From contig NC_006177.1 of the NCBI RefSeq assembly GCF_000009905.1, positions 2,480,001 through 2,544,000 of the forward strand: DNA of 64,000 nt, given 5' to 3'. Both the position numbers and the translations under genes were made by a program. This stretch comes from Symbiobacterium thermophilum IAM 14863 (lineage in GTDB: Bacteria; Bacillota; Sulfobacillia; Symbiobacteriales; Symbiobacteriaceae). Positions 32,247 through 64,000 of the stretch are shown piece after piece (positions within the stretch are counted from its first letter, which is position 1; each line of letters begins with the position of its first letter). The notes beneath the pieces are model-generated. The model saw only the letters and a list, made by a program, of their open reading frames with translations. It was not told the origin of the DNA and ran no database searches.

Positions 32247-32322
32247 AGCTGAACCCGGGCCCGGGTCCCGGCCAGGCGGCTGACCCCGCGCACTATCTGA
32301 ACCCCAAGCGCCGCGGTCATCC

Positions 32323-32518
32323 CAGATTTTGCGCGCAACCAGCGCCACTCCGACCCCGACCATACCCCCCAGGGGTACTTCGGGCGCCGCTCTGCCGTCC
32401 TCACCCGGGCCATCACGCGCCGAATCCGGCTTGTCACCCGGACCTCGCGGCGTGCACGCGGGGGCGAACGCGCAAAATCTGCACCTACTGCTGACACGCA
32501 GGTGCAGATTCTGCGCGC
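32323..32518. repeat. Dispersed palindromic repeat element (core CAGATTYTGCGCGC)
   Basis: The core CAGATTTTGCGCGC (32323-32336) recurs as CAGATTCTGCGCGC at 32505-32518. The latter is the right arm of an 18-bp inverted repeat with one mismatch (32469-32486 with 32500-32517). Downstream of each core the sequences stay similar, including GCCACTGGCCCCTCCG, which is nearly the GCCACCGGCCCCTCAG of the array at 61.1-61.8 kb. The gene-free stretch 31742-32752 otherwise holds only the acetate-operon leader, the pseudogene and GC-rich DNA without a convincing reading frame. Confidence 0.7.
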
Positions 32519-57970: not shown

Positions 57971-58113
57971 CCCGCGTGCTGTCGGCTGCGCCTTGCCTGG
58001 GCGGCGCGGAAAGGTGCCCCGCGACCCACGGCGCCGAAGGGCTCGTCACAGGCGCGCTCCCGGGCCACGGCTTTCCGCCGCTTTCCGAGGCGTAATCCGG
58101 CAGAGGTGCGCTG

Positions 58114-58150
58114 CCCCCTGCCCGTCCGGAGGTTGTGGACGGGCAGGGGG
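58114..58150 (+). terminator. Rho-independent terminator after DAHP synthase
   Basis: A perfect 14-bp stem (CCCCCTGCCCGTCC with GGACGGGCAGGGGG) and a nine-base loop are followed by CGCTTTCG, 143 bp after the stop. Confidence 0.7.
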
Positions 58151-58368
58151 CGCTTTCGCGCTTCCCGTGGTGTTGTCTCGTTGCGAGTCCCCGGGACTTG
58201 CGGTATTTCCGGAACAGTTCGCACGGTGTTTCCGTCTACCCATTGGTTGGTTCGTGGCCACGGCGCTCGCCTGCCGCCTACCCCGTCGCCTCCCCCGCGC
58301 CGCAGACCGTCCCGGGAGACCTGTCCCGCCGTGGCAGGGCCAAGTGCAGAACGAGGGAGCGTGCTGTC

Positions 58369-59439
58369 TTGCCCAAGCCGCATACGCGCGTTGCCGCTGT
58401 GCTGTCGGCCGGCGTACTCATCCTGCTCACCATGTGGCTCTGGTCCGCATCCGTTCCCACCGGGGCGCCACTCGCCCCCGAAACCACAGAGAATCCCTCA
58501 CCCCCCAGGTCCCCGGCTCCTCCGTCCACCGGGCCCGGGATCATCCCTTCCGCCTCAGCCGGAGAGCCGACGGATCTGTCGGCTGACGAGCCGCCTCACG
58601 AACCCGGCACGGAGGACCGGGAGACGCCGGAAGAGCCGGACCCCGCTGACCCGGGTGCGGATGGCGGAACCGAGCCCGTACCTGGGGGCGGGAGCGGCGA
58701 ATCCGGTCCGGAGGGGTCGGAGCTCGCGGTCCGGGTGCCGGTGCTCCTCTACCACCACCTGGAGCCGGGGGCCGACGGCAGCAACGGCGCGATCATCAGC
58801 ACCGAGGAGTTTGCGGCGCAGATGGCCTGGCTGAAGGCCAACGGGTTCACCACCATCACCACCGCCCAGCTGCTGGCCTGGCTGGAGGACGGGGAGCCCC
58901 TGCCGGACCGGCCGGTGATGGTCACCTTTGACGACGGCTACCGGTCCAACTATCTCCACGCCTACCCCGTGCTGCAGCAGCACGGGTTCAGCGGCGTCAT
59001 CTTCATGGTCACCGGGCTCGCGGGCCAGAAGGTCGGCCGGCTGGAGTACTTGACGTGGGAGGACATGCACGCCATGACCGCATCGGGCGTGATCGAGATC
59101 CAGGCCCACTCCCACGACGGCCACCGGAACATCGACGGGCAGCCCGCCCTGGTCCACTGGTCGGAGGAGGAGATCCTGGCAGACTGGCAGCTGCTGTCTG
59201 AGGCCCTGGCTGCGGCAGAGCTTCCGCCGGCAACGGCGTACGCCTACCCCTTCGGCGCGCACGACCAGGAGTGCATCGACGCCCTGCGGAAGGCCGGGGT
59301 GAAGCTGGGCTTCACCGTCCACCACGGCCATGTGACACAGGACCACGACCCGCTGCGGCTGAACCGGCTGGTGGTGTACCCCGGCACGGACGAGTGCGCG
59401 TTCGCCCGGCTGGTCACCGGTCGCGCCGCCTGCGAGTAA
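58369..59439 (+). CDS. Secreted polysaccharide deacetylase (NodB family)
   Basis: 356 residues. An N-terminal helix (VAAVLSAGVLILLTMWLWSAS) serves as signal or anchor. A Pro/Glu/Gly-rich linker of about 90 residues follows, then a NodB carbohydrate esterase domain. VPVLLYHHLEPG, the motif-1 aspartates in VMVTFDDGYRSN, the zinc histidines in IEIQAHSHDGHRN, and AYAYPFGAHDQE are visible. Such enzymes deacetylate cell-wall glycans or exopolysaccharide. The TTG at 58369 has GAGGGAG 9 bases upstream. Its last 26 bp overlap the end of the convergent repeat-protein gene. The segment 58151-58368 showed no riboswitch or clear promoter. Confidence 0.85.
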   Translation: MPKPHTRVAAVLSAGVLILLTMWLWSASVPTGAPLAPETTENPSPPRSPAPPSTGPGIIPSASAGEPTDLSADEPPHEPGTEDRETPEEPDPADPGADGGTEPVPGGGSGESGPEGSELAVRVPVLLYHHLEPGADGSNGAIISTEEFAAQMAWLKANGFTTITTAQLLAWLEDGEPLPDRPVMVTFDDGYRSNYLHAYPVLQQHGFSGVIFMVTGLAGQKVGRLEYLTWEDMHAMTASGVIEIQAHSHDGHRNIDGQPALVHWSEEEILADWQLLSEALAAAELPPATAYAYPFGAHDQECIDALRKAGVKLGFTVHHGHVTQDHDPLRLNRLVVYPGTDECAFARLVTGRAACE

Positions 59440-60307
59440 CCGCAGGCGGCGCAGGCACGTCCGGGAGCCAGGCCACCTGCACCGTGCGCGCCGCGGGCAC
59501 CTCCGGGAGCCAGGCCACCTGTACCGTGCGCGCCGCGGGCACCTCCGGGAGCCAGGTCACCTGCACCGTGTGCGCCGCGGGCACCTCCGGGAGCCAGGTT
59601 ACCTGCACCGTGCGCGCCGCGGGCACCTCCGGGAGCCAGGTCACCTGCACCGTGCGCGCCGCGGGCACCTCCGGGAGCCAGGTCACCTGCACCGTGCGCG
59701 CCGCGGGCACCTCCGGGAACCAGGTGACCTGCACCGTGCGCGCCGCGGGCACCTCCGGGAGCCAGGTCACCTGCACCGTGCGCGCCGCGGGCAGCTCCGG
59801 GAGCCAGGTCACCTGCACCGTGCGCGCCGCTGGGGACGCCAGGGCGTAGGCAACGGCGGACGGGATCACCCCGGCTGAGACACCGGCCCTTCTCAGGGCC
59901 TGGTGCACGTCTGCGTCGCGGGGATTGGCCTGCAGGCCCGGCAGCGGCTCCGCCGTGAGGGCGAGCACGCGCGCCGGGCCTGCGTCCGCGATGCGGTAGC
60001 CCGGCGGCCCCTGCTCCTCCACCTCCAGGTACGCCGACAGGCCGTCGGGCGAGACCGCCACCCGGAACCCGCGCACCGGACAGGCCGGGCGGCGGGGCCG
60101 GACCTGCACGTCCTGCCACGAGAACACGGCGACCGGCAGGGTCACCCGCTGGCCTTCGATCATCAGGATGACGTCGTCCCCCGGGATGAGCACAGCCGGC
60201 CGCCCGTCACCCTGGGGGTCGGTGACGGCAATGCGGCCGTCACGGACGGCCGCACTCCCCTCGCGTGCAGCAGGCAGCTCCGGGGGACGGACCCCGGACC
60301 TGGACAT
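59414..60307 (-). CDS. DUF342 (FapA-like) N-terminal domain protein with nine 14-residue tandem repeats
   Basis: 297 residues. Residues about 78-160 match the N-terminal domain of FapA/DUF342 proteins (GFRVAVSPDGLSAYLEV, then VHQALRRAGVSAGVIPSAV). Residues 161-286 are nine tandem copies of ARTVQVTWLPEVPA, differing at only a few sites; the tail is PPAVTRRRRDR. In FapA a beta-strand ending in v-x-vA-x-G normally follows this domain, and the repeat looks like an expansion of that strand. The ATG at 60307 shares its A with the stop of the HD-GYP gene (TGATG), so translation is coupled. It may have a surface, scaffold or signalling role tied to the HD-GYP enzyme. Confidence 0.65.
   Translation of the reverse strand: MSRSGVRPPELPAAREGSAAVRDGRIAVTDPQGDGRPAVLIPGDDVILMIEGQRVTLPVAVFSWQDVQVRPRRPACPVRGFRVAVSPDGLSAYLEVEEQGPPGYRIADAGPARVLALTAEPLPGLQANPRDADVHQALRRAGVSAGVIPSAVAYALASPAARTVQVTWLPELPAARTVQVTWLPEVPAARTVQVTWFPEVPAARTVQVTWLPEVPAARTVQVTWLPEVPAARTVQVTWLPEVPAAHTVQVTWLPEVPAARTVQVAWLPEVPAARTVQVAWLPDVPAPPAVTRRRRDR
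59461..59838 (-). repeat. Nine tandem 42-bp repeats inside the DUF342-like gene
   Basis: Nine exact-length 42-bp units start at 59461, 59503, 59545, 59587, 59629, 59671, 59713, 59755 and 59797. They differ by one or two bases each and encode a 14-residue protein repeat on the minus strand. The near identity implies recent expansion or ongoing homogenisation. Confidence 0.95.
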
Positions 60308-60915
60308 CACCCACACTGGCCTCCCCGGCCGTCGGCAGCCCGGGAAAGGCCATCCTCGTCGGCCGTCACCCGTCGCAGCGCCGCCACGACGTCGGCATCC
60401 AGCCGCCCGCACCGGACCTCCTCGTCGAGCACCCCCAGGGCCTCCTCGGGGCTCAGGGCCCGGCGGTAGGGCCGGTCGTTGATCAGCGCATCGTAGACGT
60501 CGGCCACGGCGATGATCCGCACCGCCGGCGAGATGTCGCCGGCGCAGAGCCTGTCCGGGTAGCCGCTCCCGTCGAGCCGCTCGTGATGGTGGCGGACCAC
60601 GTCGACGATGTCCGGCGCCATTTCGGGGGCCAACTGAAGCACCATGGACTCCCCGGCAGCCGCGTGCGCCTCCACCAGCCGTCGTTCCTCCGGCAGAAGC
60701 CGACCGGGCTTGTGCAGCACCTCCGCGGGGACCACGCCCTTTCCGATGTCGTGCAGCAGGCCTCCGAGGTACAGCGTTCGGGTCATCTCCCGCGAAAGCC
60801 CCAGGGCCTCGCCCAGCGCCGCCGCCAGGTACGCGACCCGGCCGCTGTGGGCCAGGGTCTCGTCGTCCACGAGCCCGTGCAGGCGGCGCACCAGGGCCGT
60901 AAGTAAGTCTCGCAT
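60307..60915 (-). CDS. HD-GYP domain phosphodiesterase
   Basis: This 202-residue, stand-alone HD-GYP domain has all catalytic motifs: H25-x-GRV helix, H55-D56 in GLLHDIGKG, H84, the HH pair at 110-111 and D115-GSGYP120, and DVYDALINDRPYR. HD-GYP enzymes degrade cyclic di-GMP (some also cGAMP). No sensor domain is attached. The ATG at 60915 has GGAGG upstream. It is followed by the DUF342-like repeat gene, coupled through TGATG, which suggests a shared function. The next regulator gene upstream (61991) carries a degenerate HD-GYP domain. Confidence 0.9.
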   Translation of the reverse strand: MRDLLTALVRRLHGLVDDETLAHSGRVAYLAAALGEALGLSREMTRTLYLGGLLHDIGKGVVPAEVLHKPGRLLPEERRLVEAHAAAGESMVLQLAPEMAPDIVDVVRHHHERLDGSGYPDRLCAGDISPAVRIIAVADVYDALINDRPYRRALSPEEALGVLDEEVRCGRLDADVVAALRRVTADEDGLSRAADGRGGQCG

Positions 60916-61054
60916 CGACAGTCCTCCACGTCGAACGCCGAAACGCAAAGTCCGCCTTAGCCTAACAGGCGCGGCGCCCCCCTGACGTCCGACGGGAGGA
61001 TGATCATGCGGCGGATTCTGTCCGGGCGTATACAACTTTGGATGTACAGGAATG

Positions 61055-61085
61055 CTGCGGGCCCGGATAATGTCCGGGCCCGCAG
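61055..61085. terminator. Perfect hairpin between HD-GYP gene and repeat array
   Basis: CTGCGGGCCCGGA and TCCGGGCCCGCAG form a perfect 13-bp stem with a TAATG loop, 140 bp upstream of the HD-GYP start. It could terminate transcripts coming from the array or the LuxR-type gene. No U-tract. Confidence 0.5.
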
Positions 61086-61136
61086 TGCGCACACGGAGCC
61101 ACACCGCGCGTGACACCGTAGCCTGCGTACATCTTC

Positions 61137-61824
61137 CATTCTGCGCGTCCCACGCCCGGCCGGTGTCCTTGCCCGCGCAGAACCTGAACCGGGCCCTCAC
61201 CATGGAGTTCAGGTTATGCGCGCCACCGGCCCCTCAGCCCAGGGTTGCGCGCAGAATCTGAACCGCGGTCCCGGTCCCAAATGCGCATTCTGCGCGTCCC
61301 ACGCCCGGCCGTTGCCCTTGCCCGCGCAAAACCTGAACCGAGCCCTCACCATGGAGTTCAGGTTTTGCGCGCCACCGGCCCCCCAGCCCAGGGTTGCGCG
61401 CAAAATCTGAACCGCGGTCCCGGTCGCCAACACACATTCTGCGCGTCCCACGCCCGGCATGTGCCCCTGCCCGCGCAAAACCTGAACCGGGCCCTCACCA
61501 TGGAGTTCAGGTTTTGCGCGCCTCCGGCCCCCCAACCCAGGGTTGCGCGCAAAATCTGAACCGCGGTCCCGGTCCCCAACGCACATTCCGCGCGTCCCAC
61601 GCCCGGCCGTTGCCCTTGCCCGCGCAAAACCTGAGCCGAGCCCTCGCCGATGAGTTCAGGTTTTTCGCGCCACCGGCCCCTCAGCCCAGGGTTGCGCGCA
61701 GAATCTGAACCGCGGTCCCGGTCCCCAACGCACATTCTGCGCGTCCCACGCCCGGCCGTTGCCCTTGCCCGCGCAAAACCTGAACCGAGCCCTCACCATG
61801 GAGTTCAGGTTTTGCGCGCCACCA
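61137..61824. repeat. 149-bp tandem repeat array with nested palindromes, about 4.6 copies
   Basis: The anchor TCTGCGCGTCCCACGCCCGG recurs at 61140, 61289, 61438, 61587 (one change) and 61736, always exactly 149 bp apart. Each unit carries a 16-bp perfect inverted repeat (for example 61323-61338 with 61356-61371, arm CGCGCAAAACCTGAAC) around a 17-base loop. A second pair, CGCGCAGAAT/ATTCTGCGCG, is also present with some variation. It fills most of the gene-free stretch 60916-61990. The reading frames it creates are periodic artefacts. The same core occurs at 32323-32518. Confidence 0.93.
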
Positions 61825-61990
61825 GCTGCGCAGCCCCCGGAGTCCAAGTCCTGCGCGCCAGCCTCCTCACATCGGAGGAGCCACGCAGGATCACGCCGCC
61901 ACATGGCGGGCTGTGCGCAGAATCCACACTGGTGAACCGACGGCGCGCCTGTCGGCCCGAATCTCCAGGGCCGACAGGCGCGCCATCCGC

Positions 61991-63826
61991 TCAATCCTGT
62001 GTCGTCAGCATGAACACGGCCGCCTTGGTGCGGTCCGGCAGTCCCAGCTTCTGCAGGATGCGGCTCACGTGGGTCTTGACCGTCGCCTCGCTCAGGAAAA
62101 GGCGTGCGGCGATCTCCCGGTTGCTGAGCCCCTGCGCCACGTGGGCCAGGACCTCCCGCTCCCGCTGCGTGAGGACGGACAGATCCGGGTGAGGCGACGT
62201 GACGGAGGCAGCCGTCTCCTGTCTCGCCCTCTCCGCCGGCGGAACCGGTGAGGACACCTCCGGCCCGGCCCCCGCCTCCGGCGGCTGAGGGTCAACCACC
62301 GGCGGGGGCGGCGCGGACCCCGCGCCACCCCGGGGCTGCCCTCGCGCCGGGTCCGTTGCATCTGCCTGCCACGCCTCTCCGGAAGCGGCCGGCAGGAACG
62401 ACATGGCGCTCCAGACGTGGCTCTCCAGGGCGGCCACCACCAGCGGGTCGAACTGCGTGCCCTTCCCCGCTTTCACCCGCTCCAGCGCGGCGGCGGGCGA
62501 GGGCGTCCCGTCGGCGCTGCCGGCCTCCAGCGCCTCGGCAAAGGCCCGGGCCACGGCCAGGATGCGGGCGCTGAGCGGGATTCCGCCCTCCCGCAGGCCC
62601 AGCGGGCCGGTGCCGTCCCAGCGCTCGCCCAGCGCCTCCAGCACCCGGCGGACCCTGTTGAGCCGCGGCGAGTCCGCGCCGGCGAGGATGCTTCCCCCCG
62701 GCCGACCGGGCTCGGCGTACGCCAGCAGCGCGGCCAGGTAGAGGTCCCGAACCTCCTGCTCCGACAGCCCCATGTTGCCCGCCAGTACGGTGGCGTAGGC
62801 CGCAGAGGCGCGGATGGGCACCGTCCGCCGCCCCGCCTCCCGGCTCTCCAGCACGGCCACCAGGGCTTCCACCGTGTCCTGCTGGGCGGCCTCGACCTCC
62901 GCCATCCAGCGGCTGTTCTCGAGGGCGACGCCGGCCAGGCTCGCCCAGGTCGCCAGCGGAGACCGATCCGAGGCGTCCAGGGGGCTGGCGGCCCGGGTGC
63001 CGGCCGCGAGGTAGCCCAGCAACTGTCGGCTGCCGGGAACCCGGTGCAGCACCACCGAGACGTACCCCAGCGCCCGGAACCGCTCGGGATCGGGCGCCCT
63101 CCCGGCGGGGAAGACCAGGTGCGCGGCCTCCTGCGCCGACAGCCCGCGCGCGGCCCGCACGCGCAGGTGGCCGCGCCCGTCGTACATCAGCAGGCAGCAG
63201 AGGTCGAGGCGGAACACGCTCACCGCCGCGTCGATGATCAGCGTGAGCACCGCCTCGGTGTCAAACTCCGTGGTGAGCATCCGGGCGACCTGCCCCAGGG
63301 CGAGCAGTTGCCGCACCTGCTCCTCCGCGGACTCGTGCAGCCGCTCCTGCTCCAGGGCAAGGCCGAGCATGTCGGCCGCCGCCTGCAGGCCGGCCAGATC
63401 CGCGGCGGACAGCGCCTGCTGCCCCGGCCTTACCACCGCCAGGATGGCCCGGACCCCGCCTCCGCCCCGGACGGGCAGGGCGACCAGCGTGCCGGAGCCC
63501 AGCCCCCACCCCCGGAGCGGCGCCGCCCGGGCGTCGGCGGCCAGGTCCAGGATGATCCTCGGCTCACCCGACTGCATCAGCAGTTGCGGCAAGAGCAGGA
63601 GGTCGTCCGCGTTCCTTGACCGGATGTCCGCAGCCGGCGGCCCCTCGGCGGCCAGCAGGCGGACCGGCGCCCCGCCACCGCAGGAGAGCACAAAGGCACC
63701 CGACTCCGAAGGGACGATCGCCTCGACCACGGCCCGGGCCGCCTCACGGCCGTCCCGGCTCTCCCGCAGCCGCCCGGCCAGCGCGGCCAGCCGCTGCGTC
63801 CACTCCCGGTCGCTCGCCGCAGCCAT
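61991..63826 (-). CDS. GAF / degenerate HD-GYP / LuxR-HTH transcriptional regulator
   Basis: 611 residues. Two GAF-like domains lie at about 20-160 and 170-305. Residues about 310-470 follow the HD-GYP fold (DLYLAALLAYAEPGR, GERWDGTGPLGLREGGIPLSARILAVARAFAEAL, GTQFDPLVV). The catalytic HD, the HH pair and GYP are replaced (AYAE, LGE, GPLG), so it should be inactive. A Pro-rich linker (480-548) leads to a LuxR HTH at 549-609 (LTQREREVLAHVAQGLSNREIAARLFLSEATVKTHVSRILQKLG). The ATG at 63826 sits 5 bases after GGTGATC, 7 bp after the previous gene. It probably senses ligands by GAF and perhaps by the dead HD-GYP domain. Confidence 0.85.
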   Translation of the reverse strand: MAAASDREWTQRLAALAGRLRESRDGREAARAVVEAIVPSESGAFVLSCGGGAPVRLLAAEGPPAADIRSRNADDLLLLPQLLMQSGEPRIILDLAADARAAPLRGWGLGSGTLVALPVRGGGGVRAILAVVRPGQQALSAADLAGLQAAADMLGLALEQERLHESAEEQVRQLLALGQVARMLTTEFDTEAVLTLIIDAAVSVFRLDLCCLLMYDGRGHLRVRAARGLSAQEAAHLVFPAGRAPDPERFRALGYVSVVLHRVPGSRQLLGYLAAGTRAASPLDASDRSPLATWASLAGVALENSRWMAEVEAAQQDTVEALVAVLESREAGRRTVPIRASAAYATVLAGNMGLSEQEVRDLYLAALLAYAEPGRPGGSILAGADSPRLNRVRRVLEALGERWDGTGPLGLREGGIPLSARILAVARAFAEALEAGSADGTPSPAAALERVKAGKGTQFDPLVVAALESHVWSAMSFLPAASGEAWQADATDPARGQPRGGAGSAPPPPVVDPQPPEAGAGPEVSSPVPPAERARQETAASVTSPHPDLSVLTQREREVLAHVAQGLSNREIAARLFLSEATVKTHVSRILQKLGLPDRTKAAVFMLTTQD

Positions 63827-63833
63827 GGCCGGA

Positions 63834-64000
63834 TCACCTCGTCGACGGGGCCTCGTCCCAGGCCGGGGCGACATAGGGCCTGCAGTACCGGTAGAGCCGG
63901 CCCCGCCGCTCGAGCACCTGCAGCTCCACGAGCTGGCCCAGGGCGGGCTCCACCAGCGTCTCCGGGCGCCCCAGCCGCAGGGCCAGGCTCTCGGGCGTCT
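63834..64000 (-). CDS. C-terminal end of a probable winged-helix regulator (cut by window edge)
   Basis: The last 55 codons of a minus-strand gene end with TGA at 63834-63836, 7 bp before the LuxR-type gene. The residues ESLALRLGRPETLVEPALGQ followed by LVELQVLERRGRLYRYCRPY look like the recognition helix and wing of a winged-helix domain, followed by a short acidic tail. The rest lies outside the window. It is probably in one operon with the downstream LuxR-type regulator. Confidence 0.6.
   Translation of the reverse strand, partial: TPESLALRLGRPETLVEPALGQLVELQVLERRGRLYRYCRPYVAPAWDEAPSTR

Follow-up and report, generated by a model that had tools for sequence, protein, structure and literature searches.

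The closest described counterparts of the array analyzed here are the iteron arrays of RepE/Pi/TrfA-type initiators, the BIME-2/REPIN arrays with their RAYT, and the centromere arrays of plasmids (e.g., AspA/pNOB8, parC, parS clusters). Iteron arrays place many short sites upstream of a tandem winged-helix gene at a spacing near whole helical turns, and Rep proteins lose cooperativity when iterons are moved apart by half a turn (PMC4980987). BIME-2/REPIN arrays are intergenic and tandem, and their inverted repeats alternate, separated by linkers of a short and a long class. Plasmid centromere arrays are rows of protein sites bound by winged-helix or HTH proteins. The S. thermophilum arrays resemble each system in these arrangements, the winged-helix protein and its binding being predicted here, but differ from iterons in being chromosomal, ten in number and dispersed, with a 3- and 4-turn spacing and sites that alternate in orientation, whereas iterons are direct repeats; unlike Rep initiators, the candidate protein described below also carries a nuclease-like C-terminus. 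In contrast to BIME-2/REPIN arrays, they come without a Y1 transposase, a GTAG tag, a hairpin per element or covariation between arms, and isolated copies are almost absent. Their number and chromosomal location likewise set them apart from plasmid centromeres, as does the lack of clustering at the origin, and no ParA/NTPase partner was noticed beside the home gene, i.e., the gene of the candidate protein.

The window, a 64-kb stretch of the Symbiobacterium thermophilum chromosome, contains a tandem array whose TRF core spans positions 61137-61823 (period 149, 4.6 copies, 92% matches, TRF score 1183) and which, with its weak terminal sites, extends over about 61135-61857 (no strand assigned). 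The tandem array with a 149-bp period recorded in the initial annotation is thus present and far above chance, and the 149-bp spacing does recur between units; the basic unit proved to be shorter, since the 149-bp repeat is itself dimeric, with a period of 74.5 bp (149 = 2 x 74.5). The true unit is a 13-bp site, CGCGCARAAYCTG, in strictly alternating orientation, and 149 resolves into 75 + 74 because tail-to-tail centers lie 32 bp and head-to-head centers 42-43 bp apart. Allowing ≤2 mismatches, we counted 43 sites in the 64-kb window against ~8 expected from a first-order Markov model; a pattern control also placed the array far above chance.

Nine tail-to-tail pairs make up the array. The 16-bp arms are perfect in pairs 3 (61323-61371), 5 (61472-61520), and 9 (61770-61818), carry one mismatch in pair 1 (61174-61222; [+] site 61174-61186, [−] site 61210-61222) and two in pair 7 (61621-61669). 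In pairs 4 (61397-61445) and 8 (61695-61743), the (−) site is an AATGTG variant, while the (−) site of pair 2 (61248-61296; [+] site 61248-61260, [−] site 61284-61296) is degenerate (AATGCG), as is that of pair 6 (61546-61594; CGCGCGGAATGTG). A weak final (−) site (61845-61857) follows pair 9. Consequently, the 16-bp inverted repeat initially described as perfect in every unit is so in only 3 of 5, and the "second palindrome" is not a separate element: it corresponds to the following pair in the alternating series, which has an AATGTG variant on the (−) strand. The same site family recurs in the window (2512.3 kb of the chromosome, window 32287-32517) as a degenerate pair (32287-32335, no strand assigned) and an isolated perfect pair with identical spacing (32469-32517; CGCGCAAAATCTG / CGCGCAGAATCTG).

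The ORFs at the array are probably either spurious or overlap it only through a 5′ extension of the HD-domain gene that is unlikely to be real. The earlier view that the stretch is not a gene is right. Nor is it a CRISPR, as had also been stated: the linkers recur within an array, the sites alternate, and the neighboring genes are unrelated to such a system. The array is flanked by long GC-rich inverted repeats without T-runs (61058-61083 and 61942-61985), which are probably terminators of the adjoining genes. A separate 42-bp tandem repeat (9.2 copies, window 59446-59830) lies within the (−) strand ORF 59414-60412, where it encodes a 14-residue repeat, PAARTVQVTWLPEV.

Absence of the unit from other loci and from related genomes would, by the initial annotation, have refuted its reading; the array survives this check, as we found ten arrays on this chromosome and, in a relative, a form that has diverged. 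The ten arrays, all on a single contig of 3,566,135 bp (C1), hold about 196 strong sites in total and lie at ~676.6, 828.2, 1937.8, 2029.4, 2325.0, 2338.7, 2541.1 (the window array), 2848.8, 2927.2, and 2961.0 kb. Strong sites are almost confined to them. Every array is built of the one site, CGCGCARAAYCTG, whose tail, AA(C/G)Y, is looser, and the orientation switches strictly from each site to the next. Tail-to-tail spacing is identical in 99 of 101 neighbors (core starts 35 bp and centers 32 bp apart), and head-to-head centers are 42 or 43 bp apart, or 32 bp in the 2848.8-kb array. No shared function was found among the genes flanking the arrays. The arrays are not mentioned in the literature searched, which lacked the genome paper of the species, and an earlier notice is possible.

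Two of the arrays lie 116-228 bp away from the 5′ ends of nearly identical Group II intron copies (C1:829003-830888 and 1935789-1937674), and a 5′-truncated copy (C1:2925686-2927008) lies 184 bp from the array at 2927.2 kb. Class C introns have been reported to insert near terminators (PMC8919778), and we rejected these introns as part of the array system, reading them as independent insertions near terminators. A mobile origin of the arrays was also set aside: the tests run matched no array relative in phages, plasmids or IMG/VR, empty sites showed neither target-site duplications nor clean junctions, and no viral-contig relative of the candidate protein was found.

The architecture of the arrays is well supported. 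The site comprises 13-16 bp, CGCGCARAAYCTGAA(C/G)Y; its heart, CAnA-A-YnTG, is pseudo-palindromic, its flank is asymmetric, and the consensus holds no GTAG tag. Within arrays, variation is 0.107 in the core versus 0.369 in the linkers (eleven fixed core positions; Wilcoxon p=0.002), a comparison in which unit detection allowed ≤7 mismatches per pair and still favors core-like units; at core positions R6 and Y9, variation is as free as in the linkers. The linkers of different arrays are near-random in sequence relative to one another (mean 10.3 of 23 positions identical vs 8.3 expected from shuffles), despite which their length is 23 bp in all arrays. In every array, the centers (of CAnA-A-YnTG) fit a helical repeat of 10.65-10.70 bp per turn best, with 3 and 4 turns between sites, and the deviating 2848.8-kb array is shorter by about one helical turn. 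Since the centers fit a 10.65-bp repeat throughout, all sites are probably on the same helical face. A different reference point would alter the 32/42.5 split, though not the 74.5- and 64-bp periods, and the phasing is therefore suggestive rather than proof. Taken together, the conserved core, fixed spacing, diverged linkers and helical phasing point to a double-stranded DNA-binding protein in a regular complex, and a congener in which the motif has shifted but the geometry is kept (below) likewise favors the protein-binding array among the readings first offered.

Strict patterns found no arrays in two congeners (G001 and G002) and 38 further relatives. A profile model built from the 49-bp pair gave repeated matches in G002 (MAG JAMNXV01), the only record with several pairs in a broader GTDB scan; the single pattern sites in nearly all other GTDB records were read as chance. 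The G002 pairs, of the motif GGCARAATGTGCA, have 32 bp between centers in 7 of 7 cases (contigs C3, C102, C123, and C13), and one inter-pair spacing there (94-95 bp) fits the 10.65-bp repeat poorly. The AATGTG sites of the window array are intermediate toward this motif. On contig C123, a 115-bp tandem repeat of 2.5 copies (L104:1049-1336) lies beside the phased sites.

Where the loci of the S. thermophilum arrays could be aligned to the congeners, we found neither own-type nor G002-type arrays, except for one near-match in a 4.7-kb sbcC-addB stretch of G001. The intervals between aligned flanks in G002 are 9 bp at sbcC-addB (about 750 bp in our genome) and 2 bp at ligD. The lack of such arrays at the aligned loci implies that they were gained or lost there since the species parted. 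G001 instead has an unrelated, multi-branched palindromic repeat with the core GCTCCTCG...CGTGCTCGCTCCGCTGCGCTCGCGCC...GCGGAGC, single or in tandem arrays of 151 to 179 bp (L066:3932-4349; L070, L072-L077). Because this repeat occupies the sbcC-addB and dnaE positions, where S. thermophilum has phased arrays, insertion-prone spots exist, and they may explain part of the co-location. Remnants of the G001 repeat are also found in S. thermophilum (C1:2263060-2263129 and 676461-676513), one of them adjoining the 676.6-kb array.

The array at 2927.2 kb, hereafter the home array, adjoins a gene (C1:2927192-2928218) for a protein of 346 aa. The order ECF gene, array, tandem winged-helix/nuclease gene, response regulator is kept in all three genomes, where an array directly precedes the candidate gene each time and a short leader before the gene is conserved. 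In G002, an array forms the end of contig C3, ~117 bp upstream of the homologue (65% identical); the ECF-transporter gene is on contig C102, along with the opposite edge of an array. In G001, the homologue is 51% identical and a 181-bp-period array lies ~205 bp upstream; it consists of inverted pairs of AACTCCATGAGCCA, six in number and each exactly 29 bp apart, and its motif (AACTCCATGAGCC) is unrelated in sequence to that of S. thermophilum. Further tandem repeats occur near the G001 home locus (L157:104-495 and L157:5223-5454; periods 45/135 and 43/86 bp).

The N-terminus of the 346-aa protein is modeled by AF2 as two winged helices (residues 8-165 confident), and its C-terminus is modeled unreliably. 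Superposition of the N-terminus by VIA-align ranked RepE54 and R6K Pi as the nearest structures, with a Z of 8.5 for RepE54 (rmsd 4.0, 152 residues; a Z of ~8 being borderline) and of 7.8 for R6K Pi (155 residues), Foldseek matches were weak (E above 0.001; AspA among them), and no PDB sequence matched the protein below 0.02, so that the predicted likeness to RepE/Pi is modest. The C-terminus matches PHROGs of homing and intron-encoded nucleases (PHROG 9084 at 4e-7) and a Staphylococcus SPbeta-like phage protein (1e-6), and D222, E232-x-N-G-x-Q-H, R257-D, and K261 are kept in all three orthologues.

Identity to G002 and G001, respectively, is 58% and 39% in the DNA-binding half, 62% and 15% in recognition helix 1, 74% and 64% in the C-terminal part, and 92% and 90% in the neighboring response regulator. 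The DNA-binding half hence diverges far faster than the response regulator, and motif similarity ranks like protein identity, with G002 close and G001 unrelated. This fast divergence is not unique, because SbcC is also just 75% and 58% identical between the species. Within a single genome, the location of a DNA-binding gene next to one array out of ten is not significant alone and could be chance; the argument for a cognate protein rests on the three-genome conservation and the parallel divergence, which make the 346-aa protein a good candidate for the cognate protein of the arrays, not a proven one.

We consider it probable that the arrays are double-stranded DNA sites for one protein, most likely this tandem winged-helix/nuclease-like protein, with the home array autoregulatory and the dispersed arrays serving docking or titration. 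One tandem winged-helix monomer would occupy each site, its two wings reading both halves of the pseudo-palindrome, and the bound molecules, with centers 3 and ~4 helical turns apart, would align on one DNA face in a regular and presumably cooperative complex, comparable to that of Rep initiators on plasmid iterons. By binding the home array, the protein may control its own expression, autoregulation being the simplest mechanism because that array lies upstream of the gene in all three genomes. The dispersed arrays, including that of the window, which is a satellite of this array/protein system, would offer extra docking or titration sites. Such an arrangement would resemble the copy control of a plasmid, transferred to a chromosome. 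They may have been spread and homogenized by recombination, possibly aided by the nuclease: the nuclease-like domain suggests a route to array turnover through putative cutting. A more specific version, in which a chromosomal Rep-like tandem winged-helix protein fused to a homing-type nuclease co-evolves rapidly with its own phased arrays, retains a home array at its gene and seeds satellites elsewhere on the chromosome, is possible but doubtful; if true, it would be the equivalent in bacteria of a satellite DNA that evolves jointly with its protein.

The perfect 16-bp arms in three units and the alternation of orientation, as in BIME-2, could suggest structured RNAs or cruciform hairpins of the REP/BIME type, acting in RNA stability, termination or gyrase binding. 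A selected hairpin is expected to covary, whereas separate double-stranded sites need not. At variable positions, partner arms agree no more often than expected under independence, and a formal count of pairs found no covariation between them (174 of 500 shuffles reach the observed score). Because the arms do not covary, RNA hairpins, cruciforms and REP/BIME elements are unsupported, and the RNA hairpin or cruciform reading was rejected on these negative tests. Rfam gave no relevant match in window 58000-64000, on which a known structured RNA was rejected, and PF01797 (Y1/RAYT transposase) had no match in this genome, whereas its control gave matches in 5 of 14 genomes. REP/BIME was rejected for the missing RAYT, and the tag is absent and dispersed single elements are hardly found. 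The fixed linker lengths would be left unexplained as well. The structured-RNA and REP/BIME-like suggestions of the initial annotation were accordingly dropped, the hairpin explanation being disfavored as very improbable.

Also improbable, to a lesser degree, is a selfish tandem satellite, propagated by slippage, unequal exchange or nuclease cutting and copying and of no function to the host, with the core kept by the recognition of the mobilizing protein. Gain and loss between close species (as at sbcC-addB), homogeneity within and divergence between arrays, and the nuclease-like domain would all suit it, but the searches for junctions, target-site duplications and phage, plasmid or viral relatives described above were negative, and a passive satellite would not need fixed phasing. 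A binder other than the tandem winged-helix protein, such as a nucleoid organizer, a centromere-type protein or an insulator, with the candidate gene a mere neighbor, is unlikely but deserves more weight: all of the architecture fits any double-stranded DNA binder, the presence of a DNA-binding gene next to one array out of ten is not improbable, and repeat hot spots exist. Against this stand two findings: each of the three genomes keeps a home array in front of the same gene, with no such arrays in the congeners at the other array loci examined, and the DNA-binding half encoded by that gene diverges rapidly.

Satellite arrays in bacteria are usually classed as junk or as REP elements, and the present case warns that perfect inverted repeats may be protein sites rather than hairpins. 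Between close species, the motif shifts together with a candidate protein and the geometry is kept, which makes these arrays a testable case of protein/repeat co-evolution, possibly with plasmid-type iteron logic in chromosomal use.
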